A stretch of DNA of 64,000 nt from Liolophura sinensis (taxonomy: Eukaryota; Mollusca; Polyplacophora; Chitonida; Chitonidae), in NCBI RefSeq assembly GCF_032854445.1, contig NC_088307.1, forward strand, positions 29,544,484 to 29,608,483. Reading direction: 5' to 3'. Made by a program: the position numbers and the translations under genes. The first letter of the stretch is position 1. Every line of letters begins with the position of its first letter. Shown here piece by piece: positions 9,562 to 32,869 of the stretch. The notes under the pieces are model-generated. The model searched no databases, was not told the origin of the DNA, and was given only the letters and a program-made list of their open reading frames with translations.

Positions 9562-12156
9562 CTTTAGCCTCACTTTGCTGCCAGATGCGAAATGATACTG
9601 TCGACTCTTACCAAGTATTTGAAAGACGTCGTCGGACACGAGGAAAGAACTGTCGTTGCTATGGTCAACCAGAACTTTTGCAGTCTCCACCCCACCGCCG
9701 AATGCGATGAGTTGCGACAGAGTTTGTACGTAACTTATAGTGGCCGATCCGAGGTGTAGCGCTATTCTTAGCTTCACACCGCCCGATTCTTCGCCGTGGT
9801 ACTTAGTATTGGCTTCAAAAGTCTTTGTTATAAACCCCTGCAGGATTTCAACGACGTTCGCGACCCATGCATGCTCCGTCATGTGATCACTGAAAGGGAC
9901 AATAACGATTGGCGTTTTGAGATGAGGCACTAAGATAAACTCTTCCTCTTTAACACACTGTACTATTTCATGATACACGTCGTTTAGAATGTCAACGCAT
10001 GTGTCTGCACCGGAAGTCACGGCAAGGGCAGACAACCCTGAAAAACCAACACAGGCTATACACGACTTGTACAAGTTCATAGATCTGACAATTTCGTTGT
10101 TGGAAATCTTTTCCGCCAGCCAATTGGGAAGCAGGCTAGATTTAGAATGCAGAGCACTTTGTTTGACCAGCTCCAGTTCAATAGCTTTCTCCTCTATTGT
10201 TTTCTCGAGGTGAACAGCATATTCCTCCAGAGTTTCCATCATGCTGTCCATCACACTTCGCTTGCCCGGATTCGCCTTTTTCATCATCCCAGCTACTTGA
10301 GAGGCCGTCGGTCTGCTCTCCGGGTTATCTGTCCATGAAATCTCCATAATTTGCCGAACTTTGCTAGGAATTTCTTCCGTCGGCATAGGTCTTAGGTTGT
10401 TCATTAAAATGAGCACAAGGACCTCACGAGGCGCAATACTCTCCGCGTGTTCGCTGAACGGTTCGTCACGAGTAAAAATCTCATGAAGGCAGATCGCAAA
10501 ACTGTACACGTCACTAGCTTTCGTGGCGGCATCCTTGAAATGAGATTTTATAATTTCCGGCGCCGTGAAGAAATTCCCCAAGGCCTGTTTGTTTTCGTCT
10601 TCGTGAACGTTGTAGAGTTGAACCTCGGAAACCATATGCTTGTCCGTTTCAAGCGACACACAACCCTTGACCAGCCCCACCTCCCAGTCAGCGATTTTCA
10701 CTGTCCACCTAGTGTCCAGCAGACAGGACTCCGTGGTCAAGTGACCGTGCACCAAGCCATTCGCGTGCAGGAACTGCAGACCGCTGATGATGTCCGCGGC
10801 TATTGAAAATTTCAGACTAGTGTTTAGGCTAAGCTTGTCATCGTGCAAGATGTCCTGCAGGACTCCTTTGCTACAGTACTCCGTCACGATATAGCGCTCA
10901 TCACCCACAGTCGTTAACCCAAAGAAGCGTACGATATTTTCGTGGACTAAATTACTGATGCACGAACTAAGCTCTCGTCTACTGCGGCTAGAAATGGCTC
11001 TCAATTTGAACGGGTGTTGAATCTTCACGCTGACAGTGTGATTGTTCCATTTGGCCGGCCAGTGGATTATGTCGCTCATAGTGGCTTCTTCGGGGTGGAA
11101 ACCTTCTCTCTTTGATTCTAGCGACATGGTCGACTTTTGGGACCTGGATCGAGATCTGGAAAACGACATCGTCCCAGGTTCAAAAAATACTACGTCTTCG
11201 ATAGCAATGTTCCAGTCGTGACAGTCTAATGCTCGGTTGGCCTTTATCCGGAGGTATATCATGACAACACCACCGACAAGGAAGATCGTTATCACAATAG
11301 GTATGGCGACCTTCAGAGGAAGTTCCAGAACACGATACCTTTCCTGAGCAAGTTCCCACTCTATGTCCTTTCGGACCAAAGTATATACGAGCTTACCATT
11401 GCATTTCATTTTCTCTAAAACCAAACTGTTTATTATCTGCTTCACCGATTCACTGACCAAGGCAAAGCCATGTTCCGCGCAAGTTCGTTCCGCGACGGGA
11501 CTCGAGAGGAACCACATGACAAAACGTACGAGCTCTTTCGCGACATCGCACTTAGAATTGTTGAACATTCGGACGATAAAGTATGTGTAGCCGAGAATGG
11601 GATAGGAGCCAGAAGAGCCTGAATCGGAGAGGGACGCGGTGAGACGAGAAGTCATAGACTCGGTTGAGGACTCAATGGCGTTGTGAACAGATTCCATGTC
11701 CGCCTCTACTACTTCACCATTTCTATTAACAATGGAGGCATAAGCCACGCCGTCACTAATGGCATCATTCAAGGATACGTATCCAATACAATACTGAAAT
11801 ACGGACAACAGGAAAAGAACGTCGAATACTCCACGGCCGTAGTAAGAGATCACGGAGTCATTCCAGTGCATGGGTTTACCGTCAAGAGTAAGACCACGAC
11901 TAAATGTTCCGTACTTGTTTGCCCAATCGTCCACTGAATGATGATAGCGAACGCGTAAGGATTTCTGTGCTTCCGGATTTGTCAGCACGTGCGATTACTT
12001 GGATTGGTTCGCCTGGCAGTTCCAAATCTGGGTTTGTTTCCTTGAAATGTGGTATCGTTCCATTGTCTGTAGGTTCCGTTAAAAATGCCGACGATTTGTT
12101 CTCGTGTAAGTACTAGTCTAGGCTTACCAGGTAAACTATGCACTAGAACAACTGCC
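9562..12156 (-). CDS. Exon 2 of PstS-like / pseudokinase / pseudocyclase receptor (two frameshifts)
   Basis: This exon encodes most of a single-pass membrane receptor. The acceptor (TTTCTTTACTTTTCCAG) precedes 12156, and joining to exon 1 restores the PstS-type sequence PVMAG/AVVLVHSLPG in phase. Three frames are read in turn: 12155-12042 (LTREQIVGIFNGTYRQWND), 12040-11933 (IARADKSGST, the phosphate-binding loop) and 11931-9562 (790 codons). Counting codons from 11988, that last frame finishes the PstS-like domain (to about 195), then has a transmembrane helix (223-247), an Arg-Ser juxtamembrane stretch (277-286), a kinase-homology domain (about 310-570), a coiled coil (577-615) and a cyclase-fold domain (640-806). 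The kinase has VHGHL where HRD is expected and DWE for DFG. The cyclase lacks its metal and transition-state residues. Single extra G bases at 12041/12040 and 11932/11931 break the frame. The exon ends AAG/GTAAGT, so the C-terminus is elsewhere. The GTG at 11988 is not a real start. It may be a live gene with assembly errors or a recent pseudogene. Confidence 0.88.
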
Positions 12157-12442
12157 CTGGAAAAGTAAAGAAACAGACAAATAAATTTCATTCGTAGATG
12201 TAACTGAGCCATAAATAATTTTATTTCCATTGTGGTTTGCAAGGGGGTATACTTACGTGATTGGGGATGGAGAGGCAAGGATTTAAATGGGCATGTAAGG
12301 GATATTTATAGGGTTAGGAGGGAAATACATTCTGGATTTATAGCAATGACTAAAGGGAATGCTTATGACGACTAAAGGAACGATAATGCGGATGGCACCT
12401 GGCACTGTGCTTAATCTGACACAAAACACAACGACATGGATA

Positions 12443-12660
12443 GTAAAACCAGAACAGCGACGACAGTATGGAATACTACAACGTACAGGGTAAAAACCAG
12501 AACAGCGAAGAACGTGTGGAATACTACAGCGTGCAGATAAAACCAGAACAGCGACGACGGCATGGAATACTACAGCATATAGGGTAAAACCAGAAGGGCG
12601 AAGATCGTGTGGAAGACTACAGCGTACAGATAAAACCAGAACAGCGGCGACAGTGTGATA
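12443..12660. repeat. 45-48-bp tandem repeat, about 4.7 copies
   Basis: Copies begin near 12445, 12493, 12538, 12586 and 12633. Each carries AAAACCAGAACAGCGA followed by GGAATACTACAGCGTA, with small length changes. Confidence 0.85.
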
Positions 12661-12729
12661 CTCATTTTTTGTCAGTTTACCTCAGTTATGGTTTTATTCT
12701 ATCTGTTCATATAAACGCTTATAACGCGC

Positions 12730-13262
12730 GCACACATGATTATTGTGGTTGCTCACATATATCTGCTATGTTTGCTCACATATAACTCACATATAACTAG
12801 GGTAGTTACTCACATATAACTACTGTAGCTATTCACATGTAACTACTGTAGCTATTCACACATAACTACCATGATTGCTTATATATAACTACCGTGGTTT
12901 CTCACATATAACTACCCTGGCTACTCACTCATAACTGCTGTGGTTGCTCACACATAACTAGAGTAGTTGCTTATATATAACTACTGTGGCCACTCACATA
13001 TTGCTGCTGTGGTTGTTCACACATAACTACTGCGGTTGTTTACACATAGTTATTGTGTTTACTCACATGAAACTACTGTAGGTTTTTCACACATAACTTC
13101 TGTGGTTTTTCACACACAACTACTGTAGCTATTCACACATAACTACTCTGGTTGCTTACACATAGGTACCTGTGGTTACTCACGTGTAACTACTGTAGCT
13201 ATTCACACATAGCCACTGTGGTTGTTCACACATAGCTGTTGTGGTTTCTCACACATAGCTAG
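12730..13262. repeat. 23-bp minisatellite, about 22 copies
   Basis: A degenerate 23-bp unit resembling TAACTACTGTAGCTATTCACA recurs across the interval. The dinucleotide before GTGGTT/GTAGCT varies most. Confidence 0.85.
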
Positions 13263-13589
13263 ATTTACTGCCGTTGTTGATACACACGAGTGACTTTTTG
13301 CCTTAATTACAATTTAAAATGTGAGCTAATAAAGGGCAGTTTACTGACTCTACTTAGTGCCGGGACTGGTAGCGGGATTAAGTGATACATGTCGAGAATA
13401 TCCCTAAATAAAACGTGGGATTTTAGCTAACATGGTTGAGATGGGCGAGGGGTGGTGGAGTAACTAAAATCCAACATAAGGCCAACATACATATCATATT
13501 TCCTTAAAGGACTCCAGGGCGGAGATCACACATGCTCGCGTTTTCGGTTTAACTAAAAAGCTAAATAACAGTATGAAGATACATTTATC

Positions 13590-14175
13590 TAGGCCTCATT
13601 TTTTCGCATTTGTTTTTGAACATTAAAAGGAGAAAAAACATAAAACTGATGTCACATTCAGATGAAAGAGCATCAAAACTTTTAATATTTTTTCGATTTT
13701 TTTTTGCAGAAGAAAATTTGAAAATTTTTCGGTAGGTGGGTATTTGGGACTACCTTTTGGTATTTATCGTCCTAGCATAATAGATCTCTAAATACAGATG
13801 TGATGCAAGTCCTGATAAATTTATTTGAGTGTAAACTCGTGATTTACATCACAAACATATTCACTTAATCTGAGATTTATGAATATATTAAAAATATAAA
13901 TTTGAATAAAATCCAGGTTGAACATATTTGCTATTATATATTAAACATGCCTGTCACATCCTAATTTATAACATTATTACACAAAGACTATATATACCAA
14001 AAGGTGGTCCCAAAAGTTATTTTGAAGTGGTTTTTTTAAAGAAAAATTGAAAGAAACATTATAGAGCACATTTACAACCAAATCGCACTCTTTTATCTGA
14101 ACTTTGTGTGATTTTTTGTGTTTTCTTCACCTTTAACGTCACCCGGAAAAGCATAAATTAAGTGAGGACATCAAA
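13590..14175. mobile_element. Foldback (MITE-like) element
   Basis: The interval is an imperfect palindrome centred near 13879. GGGACTACCTTTTGGTAT at 13746-13763 pairs with ATACCAAAAGGTGGTCCC at 13995-14012. Further out, the AAAAGGAGAAAAAACA block near 13625 pairs with the GTGTTTTCTTCACCTTT block near 14120, and CCTCATTTTTTCGC near 13597 with AATTAAGTGAGGAC near 14156. Arms of roughly 250 bp nearly meet in the middle. No transposase is encoded. This architecture is typical of nonautonomous DNA transposons; the family is not identified and clear target-site duplications were not found. Confidence 0.6.
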
Positions 14176-15671
14176 GCAGAAGCTGGAATAAATGACTAGT
14201 TATAACAAACAGGAAATGAAGGTTCGTTTTACAGTTGATTACACAAATGCCAGAGTGTCTTGGACAGCCCTCCTACGAATGAGATGGTCATTTTTAATGT
14301 AAAAAGTCGTTTTACAGGTGCCTAAGTAATTATTACCACCACTTAAATTATCGTGCTGCATCCAAGGTTATTGGTCAATGTGATAACAGAGGTTTTGGTT
14401 CGTTAATAAAAATGACCAATATCTACCTGCCATGTGAGCCTTAATATACTGAAGACGCAAGGCATACTGAGTGAAAGCAGGGAAGTGTCGACACGCTCAG
14501 TTGTACTGCTTTAAATGAATATAACACAGATAACACATCTCTTTCAAATCCCATTTCCGATTAGATTTAATCCCAAAAGATCCAGGCATATAATCCTAGA
14601 TATGATGTTTTTGAATGAGGGTTATCTCAGATTACACACTTTGACATTGTTGATGTAAAGCTGAAATCGTTACTATAGCAACGAAAACTTCTTGCCTCCA
14701 TCGGCTTTGTTTCGTGTGAGATGTTTTACTGAAGATTCCTCTGGTGTGATAATTACAGTTGGATGTAAGGTTCTTAGTGTTAACGACAATAAAGGAATAA
14801 GGTTGCAAAGCATCGGCCCATTCATTATAAACTCCTTAATCCAATCTTTAAAGATTCCCAGTCATTACCACCTTTTTCTGATTGGTAACCTACAGACTGG
14901 GATAAAGGAAGCGCACTCTTATCATTTCCTCGAGAGATCTACTGAATTTTCTTTGTAGTTAAGCCCCGAAAACCATTTCAGTGCTTTTGTATCTACATTA
15001 AAACTCAAAAAAAAAAAAAAAAACACGTTCACGTGGCAATGATCTTTAACACCGTTCCAGTGATATACCTAAGAAGTAGAACGTGACTTGTTCCAAGCGC
15101 ATAGACAACACACGGTGGGCAGAAAAGATCGGCAGTTTGAGTCTACATGCAACATTCTGGGTTATTGTTAATTTTCGTTGAGCAGCAAGTAAATATATAC
15201 CACGAATATACACAAATGCTGTTCGACTAGTTTGCCTTGTTGTTACTGCTGCTAACCGTACATCAGAATGATCTTGCTTTCAAGGAAAGTTATACAATGC
15301 TGCATTATCTTCTTTATTCTGTCAGGTGAAAGACTGATGAGTATTAAAAATACCTTAAATCGACATTAAACATTCTTGGAGGAATTTTTATAAAACCAAC
15401 AATAGAGAGTGAATCTTGATTTTTAACAGATCGCTATAATCGAGAGCAATGTGACGTCACGTTTACGCAATCTCTTTAACGTCGAAGGTATTTTTCGTAT
15501 GTCCATTAGGCAGGATAGTGGCAGCAAAAAGTGGTGGATGTACGGGCTGAACTTGTAAGTGACCAACCATTTATAAGTGGTCTCGGGAAATTGGGCCCAT
15601 GGGAAGGATATTACTTCTTCCACGGCTTGAGCTGTTGGTAAAGTCGTACGCCTGCTGCCAAATTGCTTTTC
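14176..15671. other. Unassigned intronic sequence
   Basis: No gene or element recognised. It contains a short poly-A tract near 15009-15023. Reading frames are under 100 codons with no nameable motif. Confidence 0.4.
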
Positions 15672-15788
15672 CCCGGGACTGTGCACGGTTCCAGCCAACC
15701 ATGATAATGCTGACCGCCGTCACTTAAGTGCAATACTTTTGTTAGGTCCCATGGCGTAAAACTCTCGATTAAGAAAGTGAATAAATTA
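15672..15788 (+). repeat. Diverged SINE tail fragment
   Basis: The order CCCCGGGACT ... AATGCTGACCGCCGTC ... AAGTGCAATACTTTTG ... GGCGTAAAAC ... GAATAAATT matches the 3' domain of the SINE at 48.5 kb, with considerable decay. The tRNA-like head is not visible. Confidence 0.6.
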
Positions 15789-16574
15789 GCTGTTGCTACA
15801 GTAGGCCTACCACCTTTTACAACAGTCGACGGCTCAGCATTTGCTGATTCGACAAAGTGAGTTGATGATATTGGCCTTCACGTTCTACTGTCGCTGGTTC
15901 GCTGTATTTTGGTTTCCCTATTTTACGCATTAATTAAATATTTTGCGGGTTGATAATGAGACAAAGTGGACAATTACCACTAAAGCAGTATTATAAGCTA
16001 CGAGTGCATGGTTAGTTTTATGGGTTATTTTGTATCAACTGCTACCATTTAATCCAAAGTGCTTGGGTAGTGGATTGTAAGATCAACTTTCTTCCTGACC
16101 TGCTTATTGCAGATGTCAGAAATACCCCTTCGGCTCCAACACCGCACCTGTATAATTTTATTGCTTTTTACAAAACTAAAATAGAAAAAAAAACAGAAAA
16201 AACAAACATTTTGGTCTGCAAGAAAGAAAAATCAACCAAATTAAAATTCTTCAGACATGTCAGCTGTCCCGTAAACTATCCACATTCCAAAGGAATTTAT
16301 CACTGACTCTAATATCTAATATAAGTTGTTAGCCAGGCTAAAATGAGCAATGTACATATACTTATATAGTTGTAACAGCCTAGCTACTCACATGGGGCTC
16401 AATGCGATGATTTATGCGGTTTGTGTCGAGACAGTATTCTACTGCTACGTTGTTGAATATTACACGGCTGAGAAATGAGCCAGTTTTACCTGTGTGGTGG
16501 TCGGTATATGACATACACCTCAAACCAATTTCACAAAGTTATATTTGACGTGAGAAAAAACACCGCCCTTTGAT
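15789..16574. other. Unassigned intronic sequence
   Basis: AT-rich sequence with short reading frames only. Nothing recognised. Confidence 0.4.
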
Positions 16575-16583
16575 CTGCCTTAT

Positions 16584-16935
16584 AAGTAAGTAAGTAAGTA
16601 AGTGCTTGGGGTTCAACGTCGTACTATTCAATTTTTAAGTCATATGGCGACGAAGGTATCCTTAGAGTGCATGTTATGTGCCTCCTTGTTGCAGGACGGA
16701 TTTCCATCGCTCTTTTATCTAGTGCTGCTTCACTGAAAGGTCTTACCGAAGGCAATTAAGCCGCCCCGCCCAAGCCATTATACTGATACAGGTCAACCAG
16801 TCGTTGCACTATCCATTTATGCTGAATGCCAAGCGAGGAAGTTACTTTCTCTTTTAAAGTCTCAGGTGTGACTCGGCCCAGGATTGACCCTGAATCTACC
16901 GCCCCCGCCAACTGTGTTGAAGGGAGCCGGTCGAC
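16584..16935 (-). mobile_element. Second SINE family, minus orientation, with target-site duplication
   Basis: A 352-bp insertion is flanked by the direct repeat CTGCCTTAT at 16575-16583 and 16936-16944. The left edge is a (GTAA)n tail reading TAAGTAAGTAAGTAAG followed by TGCTTGGGGTTCAACGTCG. The right part (CTACCGCCCCCGCCAAC) resembles the reverse complement of a decayed tRNA-like promoter head. That places the 5' end on the right and the insertion on the minus strand. It differs from the SINE at 48.5 kb. Confidence 0.7.
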
Positions 16936-16944
16936 CTGCCTTAT

Positions 16945-18108
16945 GGCCGAAGATTCCTATTAACGTTCGATAAATTAGACAACATTTCATAAAGTCTGAA
17001 TATGAAAGAGACTAGTTGTGAAGCCTTGAATTTCTGAAAAAATGTAATTCTTTAGTGATGTGGACTGAAATCTGCATGTGTACAAGCTCTAGCGTACGTC
17101 TAATTGGCAAGGCTAAACGTGCGCATGCGGTATACACCGTGGCTCCGGGAAATTCCTACCAGTGGATGGATATCGAACAATTTGGCAGTTAAATCATCTC
17201 TTGCTTTATGATATTGACGTTTTTATAATAAGCATCTGGATGTTGTCCTGTTCAAGAGAGCAGACAGAGACAATCTGCTAATGGAAAACCGCAGGCAGTG
17301 TTCAGATGGAGATCAATAAGTTTCTAATTGTTCTTTGTCTCTGTCCTCATAGCAGCTTATCGATCACCACCTGCAAAAGGTCGCTGGCTACGGCTTTAGC
17401 TCAGGACGTTTGTCTCCTTCATCCGATACATCCTGAGATGTGACATCTGGCTTTACCTGGTTCTCTGAATCAACCATACTGAGGTGAAAAAAAGAGCATG
17501 GCAATCCAGGCAAGGTCCTGTTGTCATTATATAACACCCGCCAATACATTGATTTTAGCCTGCCATTAGACTGGCAGCCTTTTGTAACAGTAGACATCAA
17601 AGTCATGAAAGGTATCGAATCAAAAAGCAGTTGTTGGATCAGCGCTTAGCTTCCAATTTCGCTGAATTCTACACACAATATTGAGTTCCCTAGGCATAAA
17701 AAGATTGAATCAAGACCGCATTCATGTATACAGGCTTGCAATTACCTGCATGGCACGGTTCGCAAAGGATATCAGACAATGTCTGTTAGATAAGTCCGTT
17801 AATCATGTGTTTTTACCCTATTGCTTTGTGTAGTGGGAAGTTCTCCAGTGATGATGTAGTCCTTTTGTTTCCAACACGATCAGCATGTTTAAGGAAGTCT
17901 TGTTTATTTTCAGTTATCGGTACTAGCAGTGCTAGGTATATCTTTAGGAGTTTACAGTCCGACACAAGACATGCCTTTCTCGATGATCAATGTGTCTAAT
18001 ACACTGCCTAGGAGGACAAGCAACCCTTCACCAGCAGGATATGAAACTCTCACAGACGTCAAATAAGTCAACTGTTCTTAAAACGCTACAGTACGATGTA
18101 TTTAGATT
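16945..18108. other. Unassigned intronic sequence
   Basis: No domain or repeat recognised before the 39-bp array begins. Small open frames (about 65-72 codons) have no supporting motif. Confidence 0.4.
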
Positions 18109-21100
18109 TATATTTACCAACTCAGTTGTTGCTGAGCCTGCTTGTTTGACATTTACCTCCTCAGTTGTTGATGAGTCTGCTTATTTGATATTTACCACCC
18201 CAGTTGTTGAAGAGCCGGCTTGTCTGTCAATTACCACCTATGTTTTTGATGAGCCTGCCTGTTTGACATTTACCACCACAGTTGTTGATGAGCCTGCTTG
18301 TTTGACATTTACCACCCCAGTTGCGGATGAGCCTGCTTGTTTGACATTTACCTCCTCAGTTGTTGATGAGTCTGCTTATATGATATTTACCACCCCAGTT
18401 GTTCAAGAGCCTGCTTGTTTGTCAATTACCACCTATGTTGTTGATGATCCTGCCTGTTTGACATTTACCACGCCAATTGTTGATGAGCCTGCTTGTTTGA
18501 CATTTACTACTCCAGTTGTTGATGAGCCTGCTTGTTTGACATTTACCTCCTCAGTTATTGATGAGCCTGATTGTTTGACATTTACCACCCCAGTTGTTGA
18601 TGAGCCTGCCCGTTTGACAATTACCTCCTCAGTTGTTGATGAGTCTGCTTATATGATATTTACCATCCCAGTTGTTCAGGAGCCTGCTTGTTTTTCAATT
18701 ACCACCTATGTTGTTGATGAGCCTGCCTGTTTGACATTTACCACCCCAGTTGTTGATGAGCTTGCTTATTTGATATTTACAAAATAAGTTGTTTATTATC
18801 CTGCTTATTTGATATTTACCACCCCAGCTATTGATTAGCCTGCTTGTTTGACATTTATCACAACAGTTTTTGATAAGCCTGCTTTTTGACATTTACAACG
18901 TAAGTTGTTAATTAGCCTGCTTATTTGACAATTACCACCCCAGTTGTTGATAAGCCTGTTTGTTTGACATTTACCACCTATGTTGGTAATAAACCTGCTT
19001 GTTTAACATTCACCACACCAGTTTTTGGTAAGCCTGCTTGTTTGACATTTACAACCTAAGTTGTTGATCAGCCTGCTTATTTGATATTTACCACTCCAGT
19101 TGTTGACGATCCTGCTTGTTTGACATTTACAACCTCAGTTGTTAATTAGCTTGCTTATTTGACATTTACCACCCCATTTGTTGACTAGCCTGCTTGTTTG
19201 ACATTTACCACCCCAGTTGTTAAGAAGCCTGCTTGTTTGACATTTACAACGCCAGTTTATTATGAGTTAGCTTGCTGGACATTGACCACCCCAGTTCTTG
19301 ATAAGCCTGCTTCTTTGACATTTACCAGCCTAGTTGTTGATGAGCCTGTCTGTTTGACATTTACCACCCCAGTTGATAATGTGCCTGCCCGTTTGACATC
19401 TACCAACCAGATTTTGATGAGCCTGCTTGTCTGACATTTATCTCCTCAGTTGTTGATGAGTCTGCTTATTTGATATTTACCACCCCAGTTGTTCAAGAGC
19501 CTGCTTGTTTGTCAATTACCACCTATGTTGTTGATGTGTCTGCTTATATGACATTTACCACCCCAGTTGTTCAAACGCCTGCTTGTTTGTCAATTACTAC
19601 ATATGTTGTTGATGAGCCTGTTCGATTGACATTTACCAGCCCAGTTGTTGATGGCCCTGCTTGTTTGACATTTACCATCAGAGTTGTTAATGAGCCTGCC
19701 TGTTTGACATTTACCTCCTCAGTTGTTGATGACTTTGCTTGTTTCACATTTACCATCCCAGTTGGTGATGAGTTTGCTTGTTTTACATTTACCACCTCAC
19801 TTGTTGATGAGTCTGCTTGTTTGACATTTACCACCCCAGTTGTTAATGAGTCTGCCTGTTTGACATTTACCTCCTCAGTTGTTGATGAGTTTGCTTGTTT
19901 CACATTTACCATCCCAGTTGGTGATGAGCCTGTTTGTTTGACATTTACCTCCTCAGTTGTTGATGAGCCTGCTTGTTTGTCATTTACCATTCCGGTTGTT
20001 GATGAGCCTGCTTGTTTAACATTTCCCTCCCCAGTTGTTGATTAGACTGCTTGTTTGACATTTACCTCCTCAGTTGTTCAAGAGCCTGCTTGTTTGACAT
20101 TTACATCCTCAGTTGTTGATGAGTCTGCTTATTTGATATTTACCATCCCAGTTGTTGATGAGCCTGCTTGTTTAACATTTACCACCCCGATTGTTGATTA
20201 GCCTGCTTGTTTGACATTTACCTCCTCAGTTGTTGATGAATCTGCTTATTTGATGTTTACCACCCCAGTTGTTTAGGAGCTTGCTTGTTTTTCAATTACC
20301 ACCTATGTTGTTGATGAGCCAGCCTGTTCCACATTTACTACCCCAGTTGTTGATGAGCCTGCTTGCTTGACATTTACCTTCTCAGTTGTTGATGAGCCTG
20401 CTTGTTTGACATTTACCTCCTCAGTTGTTGATGAGTCTGCTTATTTGATATTTACAACCCCAGTTGTTCAAGAGCCGGCTTGTTTGTCAGTTACCACCTA
20501 TGTTGTTGATTAGCCTGCCTCTTTGACTTTAATCACCCCAGTTGTTGATGAGTCTGCTTGTTTGACATTTACCACGCCAGTTTATGATAGGCTAGCTTGT
20601 TTAACATTTACCACCTATGTTGTTGATGATCCTGCTTGTTTGACATTTACCTCCTCAGTTGTTGATGAGTCTGCTTATATGATAATTACAACCCCAGTTG
20701 TTCAAGCGCCTGGTTGTTTGTCAATTTCCACATATGTTGTTAATGAGCCTGCCTCTTTGACATTTACCAACCCAGGTGTTGATGTACCTGCTTGTTTGAC
20801 ATGTACCTTCTTAGTTGTTGATGAGTTTGCCTGTTTGACATTTATCTCCTCAGTTGTTGATGAGCCTGCTTGCTTGACATTTAACCCCTTAGTCGTTGAC
20901 GCGCCTGCTTGTTTGACATTTACCACCCCAGTTGTTGACGAGCCTGCTTGTTTGACATTTACCACCCCAGTTGTTGACGAGCCTGCTTGTTTGACATGTA
21001 CCACTCCAGTTGATAATGAGCCTGACTGTGTGACATTTACCACCCCAGTTGTTGACGAGCCTGCTTGTTTGACATTTACCACCCCAGTTGTTGACGAGCC

Positions 21101-22339: not shown

Positions 22340-22446
22340 TGTCTGATTGGTGTCAGACCTTCCCACTTTCGACCGAAGAGGAAGCCAGCATGAGCTGGAC
22401 CTGAGCTCACAGCGGCTGCATTGGTGAGTGGCTCCTGGATCAGCAA
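22340..22446 (-). repeat. SINE head fragment, minus orientation
   Basis: The sequence GAGGAAGCCAGCATGAGCTG and the following CTCACAGCGGCTGCATTGG are the reverse complement of the region after the tRNA-like head of the SINE at 48.5 kb. Only this 5' part is present. Confidence 0.6.
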
Positions 22447-23084
22447 AAGACAGTAAAACCAGAGCAGGACGTCATTGTGACGATTGGCATATAGTTACAC
22501 GTAGCCGGTTAAATTAATTTGCTATATATAACGACTACTTTGACTGTCTGCTACCGTATATACCTTTCTACACGTATCTACACATGTGTTTTTTCTATAC
22601 ATATTTACACATGTGTTTTTTTCCTTTGTTTTTCTTTCACTATTTTGTGTTACCTTTCTTTTGGACTGGTATATGCCAGCCCTTATTTTTTATGTTATTT
22701 CCATATAGTTTATTCGGAAGACTTGGCTGTCTCTATTCCGCTACATACATGTATATTCTGTATGATTATTGTACGTGACAATGAGTAACAATCGGGTGCT
22801 TTATCGTACGACAATTGGTCTTTTTAGGTGAATATTTTTATTACATGCGAAGTTTTCATCCTGGAATTTCTGTATGTTTCCTTAACTATATTAAAGTTAA
22901 AGCAGTCAACAGAGCCCACATACTTAGCCTTATACAACGTGAAATAACCCATTCTCTTCATTGTGTCTTGCTGATCTCAGTTATACTGTTCATTTGTGGA
23001 GATGGGGAACCTTGGTCCATCACAGTCAACAGATGAGCAGCCCCTAAAGTTGAAACTAGCGTTATTTTACTATCAGGATTTCAG
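22447..23084. other. Unassigned intronic sequence
   Basis: AT-rich, with no recognised features. It may include the unrecognisable 5' end of the LINE relict that follows. Confidence 0.35.
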
Positions 23085-25936
23085 CAGCCTCTCCGACGTG
23101 ATCGCTATCATGCCAGGGCTGGAGTATGTGTTCATGTATCTCAGAAATTAGCTGTCTCTCGTCTCCAAGGCATAGAGTGCGACGACATCGAAACGATATG
23201 GCTCAAATTGTACGATAAACCATCTTCGCTCATATTTATCATTTATCGACCATCTCGAAATAGAGGTTGGAATGTGGGAAGTATTGAAGGACAATGTACA
23301 AGCAAGCATTAATGCCTTCCAGGACCATAATATAATTATTACAGGTGATTTAACCGAAAATGTCTTAAATCCATCAAATAGAAACTAATATTATTCATTC
23401 TTTTAGAATGACACATCTGTTTAACGGAGCAACAAGGCCAGCTTCAAAAAACACTACTAGACCCAATTATTTGCAACAAACGGTGATTAATGTCCAACTA
23501 TGGAACTATGTCTAACTTCTGCAGTGATAACTATCTTGTTTTTGTAAACATGAAAAGGGTGCCAAGGCTGCAGAAATATGAGAGGAGAATATGGAAATAC
23601 AAGTACACGAAGTGGGACGGCTATCGACAATTACTATTTCAAACTAATTTTGCTGAGTTAAATGAAACTGACAACGTTGAGGATTTGTGTTCCTCGGCAT
23701 CAAATCTCATAATTAATGCCGCTAAGACACACATCCCTAATTATTATATCACAATAAATCCGAGATTAAGAACGAAATAAACCTTGGGAGTAAACAATAC
23801 AAAAAGTCGCATAAACTACCCAACAAAAGTAATTCTTTACAATGTAAATTCGCTTATCATGTGCGCCAAAGTCCTACCAAGGTAACGTGACAGCTAAATT
23901 AGAGTCTGGTAATATATCAAATAAGTTCTGGTGAAAACTATGTAAGTCTCACTTTAAAAAAACACAAACTCTTGTGTATCCTCTATACCTCCATTAAAGA
24001 AATCTATCAACCCTTACTCATGTGACGATGTCAGTAAAGCTATCTTACTCAACGATTATTTTCCAAACGTTTGCAGCCTGGACGACATCGGAACGATTCT
24101 CCCTGACCGTCCACTGACAGCTGGTCCTCCACCATCTGACATCACTACTAAATCCGATTATTTTCTTGGGGAACTTACACTTATTGACATATTCAAGGCC
24201 ATAGGGCCAGACTGAATTAGTCCAAAAATGCTTTTTGAAGGCTGAGATGAAATATTCCTAATAGTATCAGTCCTCTTCAATCGCTGTTTAGGTTCTGGTA
24301 TATTCCCGTCTTTAAGGAAATCATCAAATGTAACACCTAAACTCATATCTGGAAACGGCTCCAAGGTGACAAACTATAGACCCATCTCTCTTTTAAGCTG
24401 TGTTAGTAAAGTTTTCGAACGTCTTGTATTTCGGCAAGTTTTTGACTACCTTCACTCAAGCATTACTCCCTATCTGTATGCACTTTTACCCTCGAAATCA
24501 AGGTTTACACAGCTTCCTGGCGTGTATTTTGATATTGCCAAAGCCGTGGATGACGGAAAGGAAGTTTATTTTAGCTTTTTTGAAAGCCTTTGACCGTGTT
24601 TGGCACAAAAACATTTTGCCAAGATATGATCTCTTGGATGAATTGGTACACTCCATACCTGGTATGCAAGTTACCTTGACCAAAGAGACTAACGTGTTGT
24701 ACTGGATGCAAATCAGACTTAAAGCAACTTTTTCCTTGAGTTCCACGGGCATCTGTCCTAGGGCCTTGGTATTTCTAATATTTATCAATGATCTCCCAAA
24801 CGAGATCCTACATACGTTAAAGCTTTTTGCAGGCAACACCGGTCTCTTTGTCCTCGATGAAGACCTGTCCTCCATAGATATAAAAAAAGAGATCTATGGG
24901 TAGTGACGTTTATACAGCCGAACACTGGGGGAAAACTTGGCTTGTTGACTGCAACTCAAACAAGACAAATCACAGTTATTTTCGAGACGTCTGAGACGTA
25001 GAAGAAACAAATCAATCGACTAACACCCATAAACATCTAGATGTACTTTTTGACAGTTATGGTAACTAAGCCTGTCACAAAGAAAATCTCATCGAAAAAG
25101 GTAATAAGAAACTGTCGATCTCTAGGGGTCTTAAGTACCTGCTTAACAGGAAATGCTGAGAAGTAATGTATAAAAGCTTCATCAAGCCATCCCTAGAATA
25201 TGCTGACGTCGTCTGGGGCAACATGTCCGAAGCGAAAGCTTGTGCACTAGAAAACATACAAAAAGATGCTCTATGAATCATCACTGGCCTCCCTAAAAGT
25301 GTAGCCTCGATCCTCCTTTTATGAAGACGCAGGGTTTCTTGAGTTGAGCCACCGGAGGTATATGCACCCCATAGTCACTTATAAAGAGCAGGTGAATGAC
25401 CCTTTAAGCACTGTTCACCAAGATACATTACCACCACCAACTCATCAGCGCAATGCCTACCCAGTAAGATCTTCGGATCACTCAACGACATACAGATGTG
25501 GAACATCAACTTTCAGTACATCTTTTCATCACCAAACTGTCCGTGATTGGAACGCCTTACCAAAACCTTTACAAGTATAGAAGATAATACTCAGTTCAAA
25601 ACTGATTCAGTTCATACCTCTAGCATTATCCTCAGTCGATTAAGAAAGGGCTACGGCTTACTCCATAAGCGACGACCTCCACGATAATTTTATTCTTGAC
25701 TCTGCAAGATGTCAAAGAGGCAATCCTAACGGAACTGCTGCCCATGTCCTCTTAGAATGTAGTAGATACAATGTACCGAGACAACCCATGTTAGAACGTA
25801 TAAAGACATTAAGTAACTTGGACGATATAGCGACAGCTGTCCTATTATATGGCCACACAGATGTTAGTACCACGGTTAATCAGTTAATTTCTCTTGAGGT
25901 TTATAAATACATTCTGAGAACAAAAAGATTTAATTA
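23085..25936 (+). mobile_element. Relict non-LTR retrotransposon (CR1/jockey-like)
   Basis: Pieces of a LINE second ORF occur in the correct order on the plus strand. Endonuclease-like sequence (GVCVHVSQKLAVSRL, then FIIYRPSRN) lies at about 23.09-23.27 kb and a GDLTENVLNP-like match near 23.34 kb. Reverse transcriptase lies at 24.37-24.90 kb and the LEYADVVWGN block near 25.19 kb. A C-terminal STSFHHQTVRDWNALP motif lies near 25.52 kb, and a Cys/His-type tail (AAHVLLECSRYNV) near 25.75 kb. Frames change and stop codons interrupt it, so it cannot move by itself. The family call rests on these motifs; jockey versus CR1 is not resolved. Confidence 0.8.
24366..24905 (+). pseudogene. Decayed LINE reverse transcriptase
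   Basis: The frame beginning at 24366 gives NYRPISLLSCVSKVFERLV, the conserved fingers block of non-LTR reverse transcriptases. A frameshift near 24570 moves the match to a second frame, with AFLKAFDRVWHKNIL (motif A, catalytic Asp kept) and VFLIFINDLPNEI (motif B/C approach). The expected FADD catalytic box reads FAGN, so both motif-C aspartates are changed. The enzyme is dead. Confidence 0.8.
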
Positions 25937-25967
25937 GCAGAGTAGAGCCAAATAGTGTGTGAATTTG

Positions 25968-26107
<140 letters not shown>

Positions 26108-26240
26108 TAATGGTATGTATGTTTATGTGTGTATATGCGTACATATGTATATGTGTGTATGTGTACAGATGCATCTATGTGTGTGTATATTCGGATGTGC
26201 ATACTTGCGTATGCTTATATAAATCTGCTCGAAAATATGT

Positions 26241-27245
26241 GTTTATATGCATGTCGCAGTGTATCAAAATTATCATGTGAGGGATGTAAATTATATGTCT
26301 GTTACCTGTGAAATATCCTGTCGCCCATCCTGACCATAGGCGGTAAGAGAAGGCCAATAGCAATGACACTAACAATAACCAAATATATCATTTCCATACC
26401 AATAATTATTCATTGATTACTAAATGATTAATTCTAAAGTCCGTACAGTTTTAGGTCTTCATTTATTTCATAAGTTATATGTGCAGTTTTCCATTATATC
26501 ATTCAAACGATTTGTCTTACATATTCACATTTCCGATATGTAAGTATTTTTGTTTTAAGAATATTAGTTTTTCCTTTTATATAATTCTATCGCGTGATAG
26601 CCCGCATTAAGTGTCATTAATGTACCAAGTATGATGACTGTAGGTGCAGTATTAATGGGGATATAACCTAAGATATAATTCATAGAAATATTGACTTGTC
26701 CCCGTTGAATATCTAGCCGCCAACTGCGAGCAGCAGTATATCTTCACTCACGTGTTTTATCCCAACTGTTAATATAAATATTTAGATAGTATCACTTTCG
26801 CGCCTCCTAGTACCATAACTTGAGCAGAATCAAGTTAAAAATGCAGTGAACCTCATGTTAATTACAATTTAATGGACGTCACTTTAACAGAATTACACCA
26901 AAGGCTGGGTTTTCCGGTGTTATGTCGAATGTCCTGTCTCCCTGAATGGCAACATATTGGACCCCTCCATCAGTTACCCCATATTGTCATCAGGCATGGT
27001 TGTGGGCTGTCTGGTTTAATTTCCTATGACACACCTGGGTTTTGTACGTAAATTATGGTCACAAAACAATATTTTCTTAAGTTTCTTTCAACAAGTTATT
27101 GCAAGGTCGTGAAGCACAGCAAAACCATGACCAAGGTAATTCGACAAGAGGCAGTATTTTAAAAAGTTGCATGTGACCATTTGCCAAATGTAAATCTGTC
27201 GTGGCAACCCTGGTTTTACTATCTGCAGTGCTCTATCTGAGAATT
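26241..27245. other. Unassigned intronic sequence
   Basis: No gene, repeat or element recognised. Confidence 0.4.
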
Positions 27246-27530
27246 GGCTGAAATATGGCCCAGATGGCAATGCTCTGGTTTTACTATCTTCAGTGTTCTA
27301 TCTGCAATGTGGCTGAAATATGGCCCAGATGGCAATGCTCTGGTTTTACTATCTTCAGTGTTCTATCTGCAATATATATGGCTGAAATATGGCCCAGATG
27401 GCAATGCTCTGGTTTTACTATCTTCAGTGTTCTATCTGCAATGTGGCTGATATATGGCCCAGATGGCAATGCTCTGGTTTTACTATCTTCAGTGTTCTAT
27501 CTGAAATATGGCTGAAACACAGCCCAGTTG
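27246..27530. repeat. 65-bp tandem repeat, about 4.4 copies
   Basis: Copies start at GGCTGAAATATGGCCCAGAT, near 27246, 27311, 27380, 27445 and 27510. The second copy has a 4-bp ATAT expansion at its end. Confidence 0.92.
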
Positions 27531-27608
27531 GCGTTAAGTTACAATCATTCATTCTGTCTGATTCGCGGTAGGTCCTGTAAACGAGCTAGTGTAGGTGTAT
27601 GTTCTAAT

Positions 27609-27840
27609 CAGGGGAGTTTTAGGTGATGTAAGACCTACACAAGGGGTTTAAGGTGATGTAATACCTACACAATGGGTTTAAGGTGATGTAACACCTACAC
27701 AGCGGGTCAAGGCGATGTAACACCTACACAGGGTGTATAAGGTGATGTAACACCTACACCGGGGGTTTCAGGCGATGTAATACCTACACAAGGGGTTTAA
27801 GGTAATGTAACACCTACACAGAGGGGTTAAGGCGATGTAA
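27609..27840. repeat. 30-bp minisatellite, left part
   Basis: About eight copies of a unit such as GGTTTAAGGTGATGTAACAC followed by CTACACAGG. The same unit resumes at 29383, so this is the left flank of one array split by the inserted Penelope-like element. Confidence 0.92.
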
Positions 27841-28345
27841 ATATAAGCGTCAAGTCCGACATTCCTATACCATTCGTAGTCCGTAAAGGGCGTTCCAAGT
27901 CGATAATCGTAAGATCCATTCCCAAAACAACGTTTAACACTAACTCCCAAAGACAAAGGTATGTAAGAAATTATACAAATAAGAAATAAAGCCGGTAACA
28001 CACATGAGAGAAGCGGTCATCAGTTTTCAATGATGCCGGGCAGACAATGAATATTCCAGGCATTAATTCCATATCAAAGTTCAAATTCGTAGTCCGCGAA
28101 TGAGTTCCATGTCAAATAACAATTAAACAAGTATCTCAGTCGCGCTTTAATTGCAACTGTTCATAAAGGCATCATGCTGATGTAATTAGCATGGCTACCT
28201 TTACGGACCCTAGCCCCAGGTTAAGCGGTGTTGGATACAGTTTGAAAATAACGAGCGTTACAGACCCTGACCGATCAGATTGTGATTCAAAAGTAACGGA
28301 CGATTGCGTCTTTCCCGTTAATATGTAAAGATCTCATGCTACAAG

Positions 28346-28495
28346 AGGCGCCATCTATGATGTTACACATGACATACAAGGTAGACAGTTACACTGGGCA
28401 ACCAGCGCCATCTATGTTGTTAAATACCATGTACGTGATAGATATGTACATTGGGATAACAGCGCGGTCTATTTGGTTGATCACAATGCAGATCG
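28346..28495. repeat. 57-bp degenerate repeat, about 2.6 copies
   Basis: CAGCGCCATCTATGTTGTTA-like phrases occur near 28350, 28403 and 28459, each followed by a similar TACACTGGG/TACATTGGG block. They sit just downstream of the reverse-transcriptase stop codon. Confidence 0.6.
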
Positions 28496-29380
28496 CCAAA
28501 GATTCTGAACGCTTTGTCCATACCTGCCAACGAGAGTGTTATAATGATTGTAAAATTTGAGAAACTTAGAATGAAGGCGTTTGATGGAGTATCCTTGACA
28601 AACTAGCTTTTGAACTAGCAACTTGTGACGCAGAGTAAAGTTATCACAATTAACGCAAGATCTGACAAATGCTACAAGGCGAGATATGTATACGCCATAT
28701 GCAAGACCCTTTTTTATATTGCTATCTAAATAAGGATAATTTACAATATCAAAATTGAAATGATCCCTTTTGTCGTAAAGGCGGCGTGAAAGGAGACCTT
28801 GTTCGTCTTTGTACAGATATAGATCCAAATAAAATGTACCATCAGGACTATCTTTTGTCTCCTTTAAATCCAATGAAGGCCGATAGATTTCCTTCACCGC
28901 TTCAGCAATATGGGGATAATTTAACTCCAGTAGATCATCAATATGCCGCTTGGTAAATGAAAAAGATCGAGTTTTGGAGATATTACTTTTAAGTAATTTC
29001 TGCATATAGTCGTATTCATATGAAAACAGGTATAGGTCTGCCAAAAGAGGCGCACAACTGGTACCCATTGGAATACCTATGCACTGTTGGTAAATGGTAG
29101 CTCCGAATTTCACATAGATGTTATTAATGAGAAATTCAAGTAATTCAATAAATAATGTAACATCCCATGAGTGGTAACCTTTATAAAGAGTAGAATTAAA
29201 GAAAGCCTTATTGCTTCTGACGTTAATATAACGGTGACCTGTTTTAGTGAACACCGAGACAGTTAACGACGATATTCTTTCAGTAAGATCTTTGTGAGGA
29301 ATCGTAGTATAAAGAGTAGAGAAATCCCATGTGGATACGTCTTTGTACGGTATATGCATATGAGCATCGAGTTCACATGC
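28481..29380 (-). pseudogene. Penelope-like reverse transcriptase, N-terminally truncated
   Basis: About 300 codons are uninterrupted. The sequence shows STWDFSTLYTTIPHKDL (motif A with catalytic Asp), IYQQCIGIPMGTSCAPLLAD (the characteristic Penelope/Athena-type block), RHIDDLLELN (motif C, both Asp kept, RY changed to RH), LYDKRDHFNFDIVNYPY and a C-terminal KFLKFYNHYNTLVGRYG. These blocks are typical of Penelope-like reverse transcriptases. No ATG start fits the 5' end because upstream sequence is minisatellite. The frame is intact, so insertion was probably recent, but the copy lacks its N-terminus and probably its endonuclease. Confidence 0.85.
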
Positions 29381-29382
29381 AT

Positions 29383-30655
29383 ATAACACCTACACCGGGG
29401 GTTTTAGGCGATGTAATACCTACAGAGTGTGTTTAAGGTGATGTAACAACTACACCGGGGATTTTAGGCGTTAAAACACCTACACAGGGGGTTTAAGGTA
29501 ATGTAACACCTACACCGGGGGTTTTAGACAATGTAATACCTAGACCAGGGGTTTAAGGTGATGTAACACCTGCACCAACGGTTTCAGGCAATGTAATACC
29601 TACACACGGGGTTTAGGCGATGTAACACCTACACAGGGGATTTAAGGCGATGTAACACCTACACAAGGGGTTTCAGGCGGTGTAACACTTTCACGGGGGG
29701 TTTTAGGTGATGTAACATCTACACAGGGGGGGGGGGGGTTAGGTGATGTAACACCTACACAGGGGATTTAAGGCAATGTAACATCTACACAGGGGGTTTA
29801 ATAGATATAACTCCTACTCAGGGAATTCCAGGCGATGTAACACCTACACCGTGAGTTTTAGGCGACGTAAAACGTACTCAGGGGATTTAAGGTGATGTAC
29901 ACCTAGACAGGGTTTTTTGTCATGCCATATAACATCTAGACAGGGGTTTTCAGGCAATGCAAAACCTATACCCGGTGTTTTAGGCAATGTAACACCTACA
30001 CAAGGGGTTTAAGGCGATGTAACTCCTACTCAGGGGATTTAAGGCGATGTAACACCTACACAGGGGATTTAAGAGATGTAACTCATACTCAGGGAATTTA
30101 AGGCGACGTAACACATACACCGTGAGTTTAGGTGATGTAAAACGTACTCAGGGGATTTAAGGCGATGAAAGACCTACATCGGCTGTTTCGGGCAATGTAA
30201 TACCTACACAAGGAGTTTAAGTTGATGTAACACCTACACAGCGGATTTAAGGCGATGTAACACCTACACAAGGGGTTTAAGGCGATGTAACACATACACC
30301 GTGAGTTTAGGCGATGTAAAACCTACTCAGGGGATTTAAGGCGATGTAACATCTACACAGGGGGTTTCAGACCATGTAACACCTACACCGCCGGTTTCAG
30401 GCGATGTAACTTCTACACAGGAGATTTAAGGCGATGTAACACCTCCAACAGGGGTTTTAGGTAATGTAATACCTGCACAGGGGATTTAAGGCGATGTCAC
30501 TCCTACTCATGGGATTTAGGGCGATGTAACACCTACACCGAGTGTTTTAGGGGATGTAAAACCTACTCAGGGAATTTAAGGCGATGTATCATCAACACGG
30601 GGAGTGGGAGGCGATATAACACCTGTGCAGGGGGTTTCAGGCGATGTAGAACCTT
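29383..30655. repeat. 30-bp minisatellite, right part, about 42 copies
   Basis: Units such as GGGATTTAAGGCGATGTAAC followed by ACCTACACA continue to 30655. Many copies carry changes at the GGG run, including a G11 run at 29727-29738. A mixture of TTTAAGG and TTTTAGG/TTTCAGG subtypes is visible. Confidence 0.93.
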
Positions 30656-31119
30656 ATCTAAACTGTCCTGTATCTTCAAGGATATCGTCATCTACTATCA
30701 GAGCTCCTCTATAGAAAGATGTCTTGGGCGAGGGATAAATGTTTGATTTTCCTGAAGAACAAGTAAAGGAAGAGTCCTTTGATGACAGCTATGATTGTAG
30801 ATAATGGGTAACTGGAGATTGTCAGACTGCAAACCTGAGGGCTTTGATCATAAGTATGGATATACGACTAATTTCAAAACTGGAATCATAAGGGACTTTA
30901 TATACATTTGGTGCTTATATGAACTGTTTATATTGATGTGGAAAACAAGGGGCATCTGTTGAGTTGGATTTATATTTACAGACAATATCAATTTGTCTGG
31001 TTAAGACTTGGTGCATGAAATATCCATTTTTTTCATATTGCTCTAAAGGGAACTAAAGGGAACTGTTTGTTTGTTTGTCTCTTGGATTGTGGTTAAAAAC
31101 AATACCAAGAACATTTCCC
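30656..31119. other. Unassigned intronic sequence
   Basis: Nothing recognised between the two arrays. Confidence 0.4.
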
Positions 31120-31640
31120 ATGTTTGACACGTTTTACATGTGTGACGGTGGCAAGCTTTATAACGGTAACAAGGTTTGTGGATAGGGCAAACTTGACTGA
31201 TGAATGCATGTTTCGCATGTATGACGGTGACAAGGCTCGTGAGAAGAGCAAAACGTGACTAATGAATGCGTGTTTCACATGTACAACGGCGACCAGGTTT
31301 GTGGGTAGAGCAAACGTGACCCATGAATGCAGGTTTCACATGTATGACGGTGACGAGGCTCGTGGGAAGAGCAAATGTGACTAATGAATGCGTGTTTCAC
31401 ATGTACAACGGCGACCGGATTTGTGGGTAGAGCAAACGTGACCCATGAATGCAGGTTTCACATGTACAACGGTGATGACGTTTATGGGTTGAGTAAACCT
31501 GACTCATAAATGCATGTTTCACATGTATAACAGTGACGAGGTTCGTGGGTAGAGCAAGCGTGACTCGTGAATGCAGGTTCAAGATGTATGACGGTGACGA
31601 GGTTTGTGGGTAGAACAGACCTGACTCACAGTGAGGAGGT
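31120..31640. repeat. About 61-bp tandem repeat, 8 copies
   Basis: Units contain TTTCACATGTATGACGGTGA, then GGTTTGTGGGTAGAGCAAAC and GTGACTCATGAATGC. Alternate copies resemble each other more than neighbours (GACGGTGACGAGGCTCG versus AACGGCGACCAGG), hinting at a two-unit higher-order period. Confidence 0.88.
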
Positions 31641-32007
31641 TTGTTTGGTACGATATCAACTGTAAATTACGGTAGTGTGGTCTTCTGGAATGGAACAAAA
31701 TGACTGATCAACAATAATTTGTTGATTCAATCTTGTTATCTTAAATAAAACACTTACGGAATAGAGAGTGAAACCAGGTGTAACATGTAAATGGTGAAAT
31801 ACGGTATCGTGTCCATTTAGCTCTGTTACGCCACTATTGTAACAATCTAAATCTCGGATAAAATAAATAAAATAAACTTTCAATCAACTGCTGGATAACT
31901 GAATTACTGGATAGTCACCTAATTGTTATCTTTAACTCACCTAATTCTTAAAAGTTATGGTTTCCTACATCTTCAAAGAATTAATGTATGCTACTTGGGC
32001 TTTTGAT

Positions 32008-32150
32008 TTGTTTACTTATTCATTTGATTGGTGTTTTACGCCGCACTCAAGAATACTTCACTTATACGACGGTTGCCAGCGTTGTGGTGGGATGAAACCG
32101 GGTGAAGCCCGGGGGAAACACGGCAATCCACAGACTGCTGACTAACTTGC
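32008..32150 (-). repeat. SINE tail fragment, minus orientation
   Basis: TTATTCATTTGATTGGTGTT followed by TTACGCCGCACTCAAGAATA, CTTATACGACGG and GGTGGGATGAAACCGGG is the reverse complement of the 3' domain of the SINE at 48.5 kb. The match fades after about 32150. It lies about 360 bp inside the receptor intron, close to exon 1. Confidence 0.75.
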
Positions 32151-32513
32151 GTCAGGTAACTTGATGTAGATGTTGTTGTTGGTCACGGGGTTGACCCGGT
32201 CTGTCTATCATAAGTCTCACCTGTATTTTAGAGGTAATCAAACATCAGCCTCAGTTTCAGCTTCCTGGATGTTTAGTAATTTGGTGTTTAACCGTATAGT
32301 CATACGCATTTTTGACTTATACAATAGTAGTCAGCATTTTGAGTAGGGGACACAGACGTGTGAGCCGCATTAGTGGAAGACAAGTGTCTTTATCAAAGGT
32401 ATTTAAGACTGTACAAATGCCCCCATCAGTGTCGCCGGCCCTGCCCTGCCACCATGCTCCAAAAAACACGACAGCGGCGTCTAATTAAAAAAGTAAATAT
32501 ATCAATAACTTAC

Positions 32514-32869
32514 CCTGCCATGACAGGGAACATTTGTAAGTCTGGATGGTCGATGTAATCTTCCTCTGTCAGAATTGAGTCCGAGCCTGCGAAGTCCACA
32601 GCAGGTTCCAGCTCACCTTTCATTCGTTCCTGGCCCACCCCGCTTCCCTTAGCGGCGTAGGTGACCGACACGTCCAGGTATTCCCGTCTCACCTCTGCGT
32701 ACGCCGACATCCACACCTGGTAGACATTCCTGGGAAAAGTTGCCCCAGCGCCGACAACGTGAACAGTTGCTGAAATGCGAGGTGCTATTTCCAGTGTGAA
32801 CCAGCACATACTGAAGATTAGAATGTATCCACCACAGGCACCCGCCCGCTGTTGCTGAGACACCAACAT
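32514..32869 (-). CDS. Exon 1 of PstS-like receptor: signal peptide and N-terminal binding lobe
   Basis: Encodes the N-terminus of the phosphate-binding-protein-like receptor continued at 12156-9562. The first ATG in the open frame is at 32869, with G at -3. It gives a 34-residue signal-peptide-like start (GGYILIFSMCWFTL hydrophobic core, APRISA before the mature domain). The family motifs follow: GAGATFP at residues 40-46, GSGVGQ at 75-80 and VDFAGSD at 91-97. By analogy with E. coli PstS these supply the Thr/Phe, Ser and Asp phosphate contacts. The exon ends at MAG with the donor GG/GTAAGT, and the first stop codon in the same frame lies in that donor. An upstream noncoding exon is possible. 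The bacterial-type fold in a spliced gene with a signal peptide argues against bacterial contamination. Confidence 0.85.

Follow-up and report, generated by a model that had tools for sequence, protein, structure and literature searches.

A chiton receptor family with a PstS-type ectodomain on a receptor guanylate cyclase chassis: a candidate extracellular phosphate sensor

How does a bacterial phosphate-binding domain come to stand at the head of what looks like an animal membrane receptor, and what might such a receptor do? The question is raised by a minus-strand gene in a 64,000-nucleotide stretch of the genome of the chiton Liolophura sinensis (C13:29544484-29608483; hereafter the window, to which coordinates without a contig name refer). 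The assembly was published as Liolophura japonica (excerpt of PMC11068029), and the species was later corrected by its authors to Liolophura sinensis (PMC12441733). By eye, the gene order of the mitochondrial contig appears to be the ancestral molluscan one. An original prediction, made from the window alone, had proposed that this gene joins a PstS-like ectodomain to a receptor-cyclase chassis and could encode a phosphate receptor, and all the motifs that it named are present in that gene, on the minus strand and in the order given. We consider it probable that the gene is the broken one among three members found of a chiton receptor family, in which a PstS domain sits on the chassis of the atrial natriuretic peptide (ANP) receptor and senses phosphate, the signal being passed on through a partner.

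The family is defined by a search of the genome (609,464,459 bases in 632 contigs) with the window ectodomain, which returned three loci, namely the window, C13:4.70 Mb, and C5:19.38 Mb (eight matches by exon piece, all nine candidates scored, the counts being lower bounds). These loci lie on two chromosome-size scaffolds. When the genome was searched with Pfam PBP_like_2, the broken window copy escaped and the other two loci, at C5 and C13:4.70 Mb, were recovered. In these two copies, hereafter the C5 and C13 copies, the reading frame stays open through both exons (960 and 984 codons), and PBP_like_2, PK_Tyr_Ser-Thr, and Guanylate_cyc follow in that order, all above cut-off. The window gene consists of exon 1 (32869-32514) and exon 2 (12156-9562), separated by a GT-AG intron of about 20 kb that is rich in minisatellites (12157..32513), and a GT-AG intron at the same place and in the same phase, phase 2, is common to all three loci. 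Exon 1 is an open frame that begins with an ATG at 32869, 17 codons downstream of an in-frame stop, and encodes a signal-peptide-like start and the N-terminal part of the ectodomain with the motifs GAGATFP, GSGVGQ, and VDFAGSD, and its end at 32514 is followed by a GT donor; PBP_like_2 scores 29.5 bits on this exon alone (cut-off 27). An AG acceptor at 12156 precedes exon 2, which, from its translation, Pfam matches, and alignment with NPR1, covers the remainder of the ectodomain and an apparent transmembrane helix, followed by the kinase-homology domain, the coiled-coil linker, and the degenerate cyclase domain. The junction 32514/12156 that had been proposed has GT-AG ends, reads in frame (phase 2) across the two exons, and has counterparts in both paralogs. 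Because a GT donor follows exon 2, a further 3′ exon is expected.

The shared architecture bears directly on whether the family could be an assembly chimera or bacterial contamination. The window copy is frame-broken and the HiFi coverage of the assembly is only 14x (excerpt of PMC11068029), but we regard an artifact of this kind as extremely improbable, given that there are three loci on two chromosome-size scaffolds with an intron in each, that the PstS and kinase-homology parts lie in one exon at all three loci (open in the C5 and C13 copies), and that no plasmid or phage match exceeds 36% identity among 55 of 162 matching records. On the strength of the three loci, the shared intron, and the single exon that holds both parts, we reject it. 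On its chromosome-size scaffold, the C5 receptor (C5:19375000-19384999) is approximately 95-104 kb away from the end, and the window gene is approximately 0.5 Mb away from the end of C13.

Several lines of evidence indicate that the ectodomain, judged by its sequence, is PstS. First, the PstS equivalog model TIGR00975 (cut-off 205) is matched over nearly its whole length, with 239.4 bits for the C5 copy, 203.7 for the C13 copy, and 186.8 for the window copy (E 5.1e-55, with X at the frame breaks). The cut-off is therefore passed by one copy of the three, C13 falling 1.3 bits short and the window copy lying below it. Second, a profile of the three ectodomains searched against the PDB matched E. 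coli PstS (1ixh) at 7.8e-46 and Mycobacterium PstS-1 at 2.3e-34, PstS entries as a whole falling between 1e-46 and 1e-25 and DING and related phosphate binders at about 1e-9 to 1e-12. A failure of profile searches to place the ectodomain with PstS-like proteins had been named beforehand as a possible refutation, and the searches did place it there. Third, the eight positions that we take to contact phosphate in E. coli PstS (T10, F11, S38, D56, R135, S139, G140, and T141) are kept in all three copies if exchange of Ser and Thr is allowed, with Ser in place of Thr at position 10 in C5 and C13 and at position 141 in C13 and the window copy. The ectodomains are 40-43% identical among themselves and 23-35% identical to the 12 bacterial and phage rows that were read in the correct frame. 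The chiton domain shares with bacterial PstS (TIGR00975, E. coli 1ixh) a near-full model match and the contact positions, but it is carried on a eukaryotic receptor chassis, is split by an intron, has insertions relative to bacterial PstS, and bears a glycosylation sequon (WND[ST]) together with three cysteines specific to the family, which are found in all three animal rows and in none of the 12 bacterial and phage rows. These cysteines and the sequon would fit an extracellular, glycosylated, and disulfide-bonded protein, and a transporter role with PstCAB is not expected in an animal receptor.

The window copy itself does not fully agree with the gene that had been predicted. The order of the listed domains stands, but the copy is not a single open frame. 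Three-frame translation places two frameshifts near 12,041 and 11,932, within a stretch (11920..12060) that is open in both paralogs, and as a result the motifs LTREQ..WND and RADKSGST of the window copy lie in different frames. From the second frameshift to the end of exon 2, approximately 790 codons are open. A cryptic intron seems unlikely to account for the two breaks: inspection by eye showed no GT..AG pair near them, and shifts of this size do not suit a small intron. When neutral substitution was simulated over the open stretch of 811 codons, which starts about 20 codons before the second break, the stretch stayed free of stops in about 17% of 500 runs at 2% change per site and in about 1% of 500 runs at 5% change per site, which suggests that if the window copy is dead, its death was recent. 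Because of the two ectodomain frameshifts in the sequence as assembled, the window copy is probably a pseudogene or null allele; it is most likely that it represents a recently inactivated paralog or a null allele, and an error in the assembly may alternatively be the cause of the frameshifts.

The part of the protein behind the ectodomain belongs to the receptor guanylate cyclases, as had been predicted. An apparent transmembrane helix (LPLKVAIPIVITIFLVGGVVMIYLRIK; 11242..11322) was recognized by eye in the translation, and the NPR1 alignment begins inside it. NPR1, the ANP receptor, is the best PDB match for the cytoplasmic part of each copy (E-values of 1.5e-53 for C5, 4.9e-66 for C13, and 1.8e-36 for the window copy). 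The order of ectodomain, one transmembrane segment, kinase-homology domain, coiled coil, and cyclase domain is given by Pfam in the two unbroken copies and by the NPR1 alignment in all three. In the window copy, the kinase-homology domain (10291..11046; PK_Tyr_Ser-Thr at 126.4 bits over residues 317-568 of the open reading frame [ORF], and the NPR1 alignment) carries the VHGHL...C signature and is a pseudokinase; by eye, the kinase-homology domains of the family are without HRD and DFG, as in receptor cyclases. It is followed by a linker or coiled coil (10105..10258, limits approximate), placed by alignment with the paralogs and NPR1, and by the degenerate cyclase-fold domain (9562..10090, start approximate), likewise placed by alignments. 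For the signal peptide, the transmembrane helix, and the coiled coil, the assignment comes from alignment and inspection by eye, not from a predictor.

Whether the chassis still works as an enzyme depends on its cyclase domain. Guanylate_cyc scores 84.8 and 91.9 bits in the two unbroken copies, above cut-off. The cyclase-fold domain predicted for the window copy can be recognized by alignment with NPR1 and with the C13 paralog (34.6% identity over 107 amino acids, E 1.4e-11), but it receives no Pfam call at E<=1. We take the catalytic residues to be two metal-binding Asp, a guanine-selecting Glu and Cys, and an Asn/Arg pair. Set against NPR1, the C5, C13, and window copies have Thr, Glu, and Gly, respectively, in place of the first metal Asp, and the window copy alone has also lost the second, which is Thr there. 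Of the guanine-selecting residues, C5 retains both the Glu and the Cys, and C13 retains the Cys. The Asn/Arg positions show N/K in C5, K/Q in C13, and E/V in the window copy, in which both metal-Asp positions, the base-selecting positions, and the Asn/Arg positions are all changed. None of the three copies has a complete catalytic set and all three have lost the first Asp; thus, we speak of a receptor guanylate cyclase chassis and do not claim an active guanylate cyclase. Usually, it is the cyclase domain that is best conserved. Here the cyclase domain with the coiled coil, at 21-26% identity between copies, ranks lowest in conservation in every pair, and the kinase-homology domains are 32-42% identical. 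In 9 of 9 comparisons, third codon positions show more differences than first and second positions, which indicates that all parts have evolved mostly under constraint. By pattern search, the canonical string KVETIGDAYM is found at 19 and a DIVxF-type first-Asp motif at 15 of 30 cyclase loci in the genome; these loci are the best of 140 Guanylate_cyc matches, and the matches correspond to exon pieces rather than genes. C5 and C13 are among the 30, and exons that lie outside the loci are missed.

A phosphate-regulated guanylate cyclase, that is, a receptor that makes cyclic guanosine monophosphate (cGMP) by itself upon binding phosphate, would suit the domain order of the family, the Guanylate_cyc matches of both unbroken copies, and the several active-site residues kept in C5. 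The loss of the first metal Asp and the altered Asn/Arg pair in all three copies argue against it, as do the position of the cyclase as the least conserved part in every pair and the presence of KVETIGDAYM at so many cyclase loci of the same genome, and we consider it quite improbable. The original prediction, if taken to mean a phosphate-to-cGMP receptor in the ordinary sense, is in this respect unlikely to hold, key catalytic residues being lost in all three copies. Given the incomplete catalytic set and the poorly conserved cyclase, it seems probable that the family senses phosphate without making cGMP alone.

By comparison of sequences we have shown PstS homology with the contact positions kept, a pseudokinase, a catalytically incomplete cyclase, and a shared intron. 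The family is a good candidate for an animal phosphate sensor. We favor the hypothesis that the ectodomain would bind inorganic phosphate in an extracellular Venus-flytrap cleft, that closure on phosphate would alter the geometry of the coiled-coil dimer, and that the output would pass through a partner, either in a heterodimer with a competent cyclase or by way of a scaffold, and not through homodimeric cGMP synthesis. A signal through a partner is suggested because the first metal Asp is gone in all three copies. A narrower proposal casts the degenerate cyclase as a partner subunit: paired with a competent cyclase in a heterodimer, it would complete the active site of the latter. The active site of adenylyl cyclase is formed by two unlike halves, C5 has the base-selecting Glu and Cys and the Asn, the coiled-coil linker is retained, and cyclase loci with canonical motifs exist elsewhere in the genome. 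However, C13 is without the Glu, Asn, and Arg, the Arg is Lys in C5, and there is no known partner; we therefore hold this proposal to be possible but doubtful.

Several observations weigh against a phosphate-sensing family that signals through a partner. As assembled, the window copy is unable to make the protein on account of its two small ectodomain frameshifts, and the 3′ exon has been located for none of the three copies. The C5 copy keeps the second metal Asp, Glu, Cys, and Asn, and may on this basis be active in a heterodimer. After the second break, the ectodomain is only 33% identical in the two pairs that involve the window copy, so that conservation of the binding domain does not clearly exceed that of the kinase-homology domain. 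Position 141 is Ser in two copies and Thr in all 12 bacterial and phage rows. Finally, the cut-offs of two further NCBI PstS models are passed by none of the three copies, namely NF008171 (cut-off 339; 158.2, 115.8, and 108.9 bits) and TIGR02136 (cut-off 206.6; 37.8, 33.9, and 32.4 bits), which indicates a PstS relative that is nearest to TIGR00975 and not to the other types. The unmet cut-offs, Ser141, and the insertions relative to bacterial PstS would also accommodate an ectodomain that has kept the PstS fold and shifted its ligand to arsenate, a phosphonate, a phosphorylated metabolite, or a peptide. Although these features deserve weight, the contact positions are kept and C5 passes the TIGR00975 equivalog cut-off, and we regard a shifted ligand as unlikely.

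The retention of the binding-site positions while the enzyme decays could also be explained by a membrane-anchored phosphate buffer or decoy, which would concentrate or clear phosphate or phosphorylated molecules at a surface and use its cytoplasmic part as a trafficking or scaffold tail. The cores of chiton teeth consist of calcium phosphate (excerpt of PMC7850002), which would be in keeping with such a binder. The constraint on the kinase-homology domain, as seen in its identity between copies and the excess of third-position differences, goes beyond what a plain anchor would need, and we consider a buffer or decoy somewhat unlikely. A fuller form of our preferred reading, in which the family constitutes a dedicated animal receptor for extracellular phosphate that signals through a partner by way of its pseudokinase and pseudocyclase, possibly reporting phosphate during mineralization of the apatite tooth cores, is offered tentatively, as an idea that may well prove wrong.

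As for the origin of the ectodomain, a tree of 16 rows places the three chiton copies on one side of a branch with support of 100/100. The tree was drawn with a midpoint root and contains no other eukaryotic PstS, and its 13 bacterial and phage rows represent 10 of 72 plasmid records, 2 of 90 phage records, and 1 genome contig. The grouping fits a single capture that preceded the duplications. Searches with an alignment of the three ectodomains found one relative among genome contigs, on a Cloacimonadota contig (30% identity), and none among viral contigs; the best matches listed among 55 of 162 matching records reach 34-36% identity for plasmids and 32% for phages. The plasmid, phage, and contig searches name no donor, the sample of 13 rows being too small to do so.

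The combination differs in distinct ways from the systems to which it can be compared. PstS has a type II binding-protein fold, and the ANF-receptor ectodomain has a type I fold. In the C5 and C13 ectodomains Pfam called PBP_like_2 alone, and the type I ANF-receptor domain that is usual, if not universal, in such receptors was not called. Receptor guanylate cyclases such as NPR1 and GC-C have the same order of extracellular domain, one transmembrane segment, kinase-homology domain, coiled coil, and cyclase (excerpt of PMC1435932), but in the chiton family the ectodomain is PstS and the catalytic residues of the cyclase are incomplete. The closest precedent for an animal receptor cyclase that carries a bacterial anion sensor is provided by the known NIT-domain guanylate cyclases, which, like the chiton family, combine a bacterial small-anion sensor with a cyclase of the ANP-receptor type and occur in animals including molluscs (excerpt of PMC7400543). 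The NIT domain (PF08376) forms a helical bundle with a transmembrane segment on either side (excerpt of PMC7400543), whereas the chiton receptors combine PstS with one apparent transmembrane segment, a kinase-homology domain, and a cyclase that is degenerate. The NIT domain was not found in the C5 and C13 copies (Pfam, E<=0.01). NIT-domain guanylate cyclase ORFs are encoded in the same genome at L042 (1483-2715; 62.0 bits) and L018 (1534-3120, minus; 54.5 bits), and a kinase-homology domain was not called in these two ORFs, which were the ones scanned. Several cyclase loci lie on contig C9.

A further comparison concerns the DING proteins and the human phosphate-binding protein, which are PstS-like phosphate binders reported from eukaryotic tissues and whose eukaryotic genes, according to the same account, had not been identified in genome or expressed sequence tag databases (excerpt of PMC2225411). 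The PstS domain of the chiton, by contrast, is encoded by chromosomal, intron-bearing genes. We considered DING identity for the chiton ectodomains and rejected it, as the match to DING and related binders is far weaker than that to PstS and the N-terminal DINGGG signature was unseen by eye in all three.

What appears to be new, as far as the sequences can tell, is the different sensor (PstS), the chassis with its kinase-homology domain, and the decayed cyclase. No prior report of a PstS-headed receptor was found in the literature searched, from which most subscription papers were out of reach, and the novelty is further bounded in that protein databases were not queried for other animals with this architecture. 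To our knowledge, extracellular phosphate sensing in animals is not a settled matter and no purpose-built phosphate receptor has been established. Because the ligand and binding site of PstS are known in detail, the phosphate question can be tested on one soluble ectodomain. If our reading is true, PstS is present in animal chromosomes, for which the literature searched likewise offered no earlier report, and the family would be a second case, after the NIT cyclases, of an animal receptor cyclase that has taken up a bacterial anion sensor. It would also bear on the long-standing puzzle of DING proteins without identified genes (excerpt of PMC2225411). The chiton offers a plausible setting for phosphate sensing, since its tooth cores are hardened with calcium phosphate (excerpt of PMC7850002).

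The window holds several large minisatellites. Within the receptor intron, a minisatellite at 18112-22221 comprises 105 units of 39 bp, and directly downstream of exon 2 another at 5881-9535 is made of units of about 98/130 bp; further arrays consist of 42 units of 30 bp (29384-30648) and of 19 units of 60 bp at 98% (3883-5026). The intron also contains two retroelement-like ORFs (28481-29389, minus strand, and 24397-24903, plus strand), which have no Pfam match at E<=0.01 and which, by eye, we take to be Penelope-like and reverse-transcriptase-like. Upstream of the receptor gene, near-identical ORFs that resemble basic helix-loop-helix proteins form a tandem array on the minus strand (41526-42170, 49174-49818, and 57351-57743) with a spacing of approximately 7.6-7.9 kb; HLH was confirmed by Pfam for the first of them only (47.6 bits), and the third is shorter. 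Elsewhere in the assembly, contig C99 contains COX1 seven times, approximately 15.5 kb apart, and resembles a concatemer of the mitochondrial genome that was kept as a scaffold of its own.

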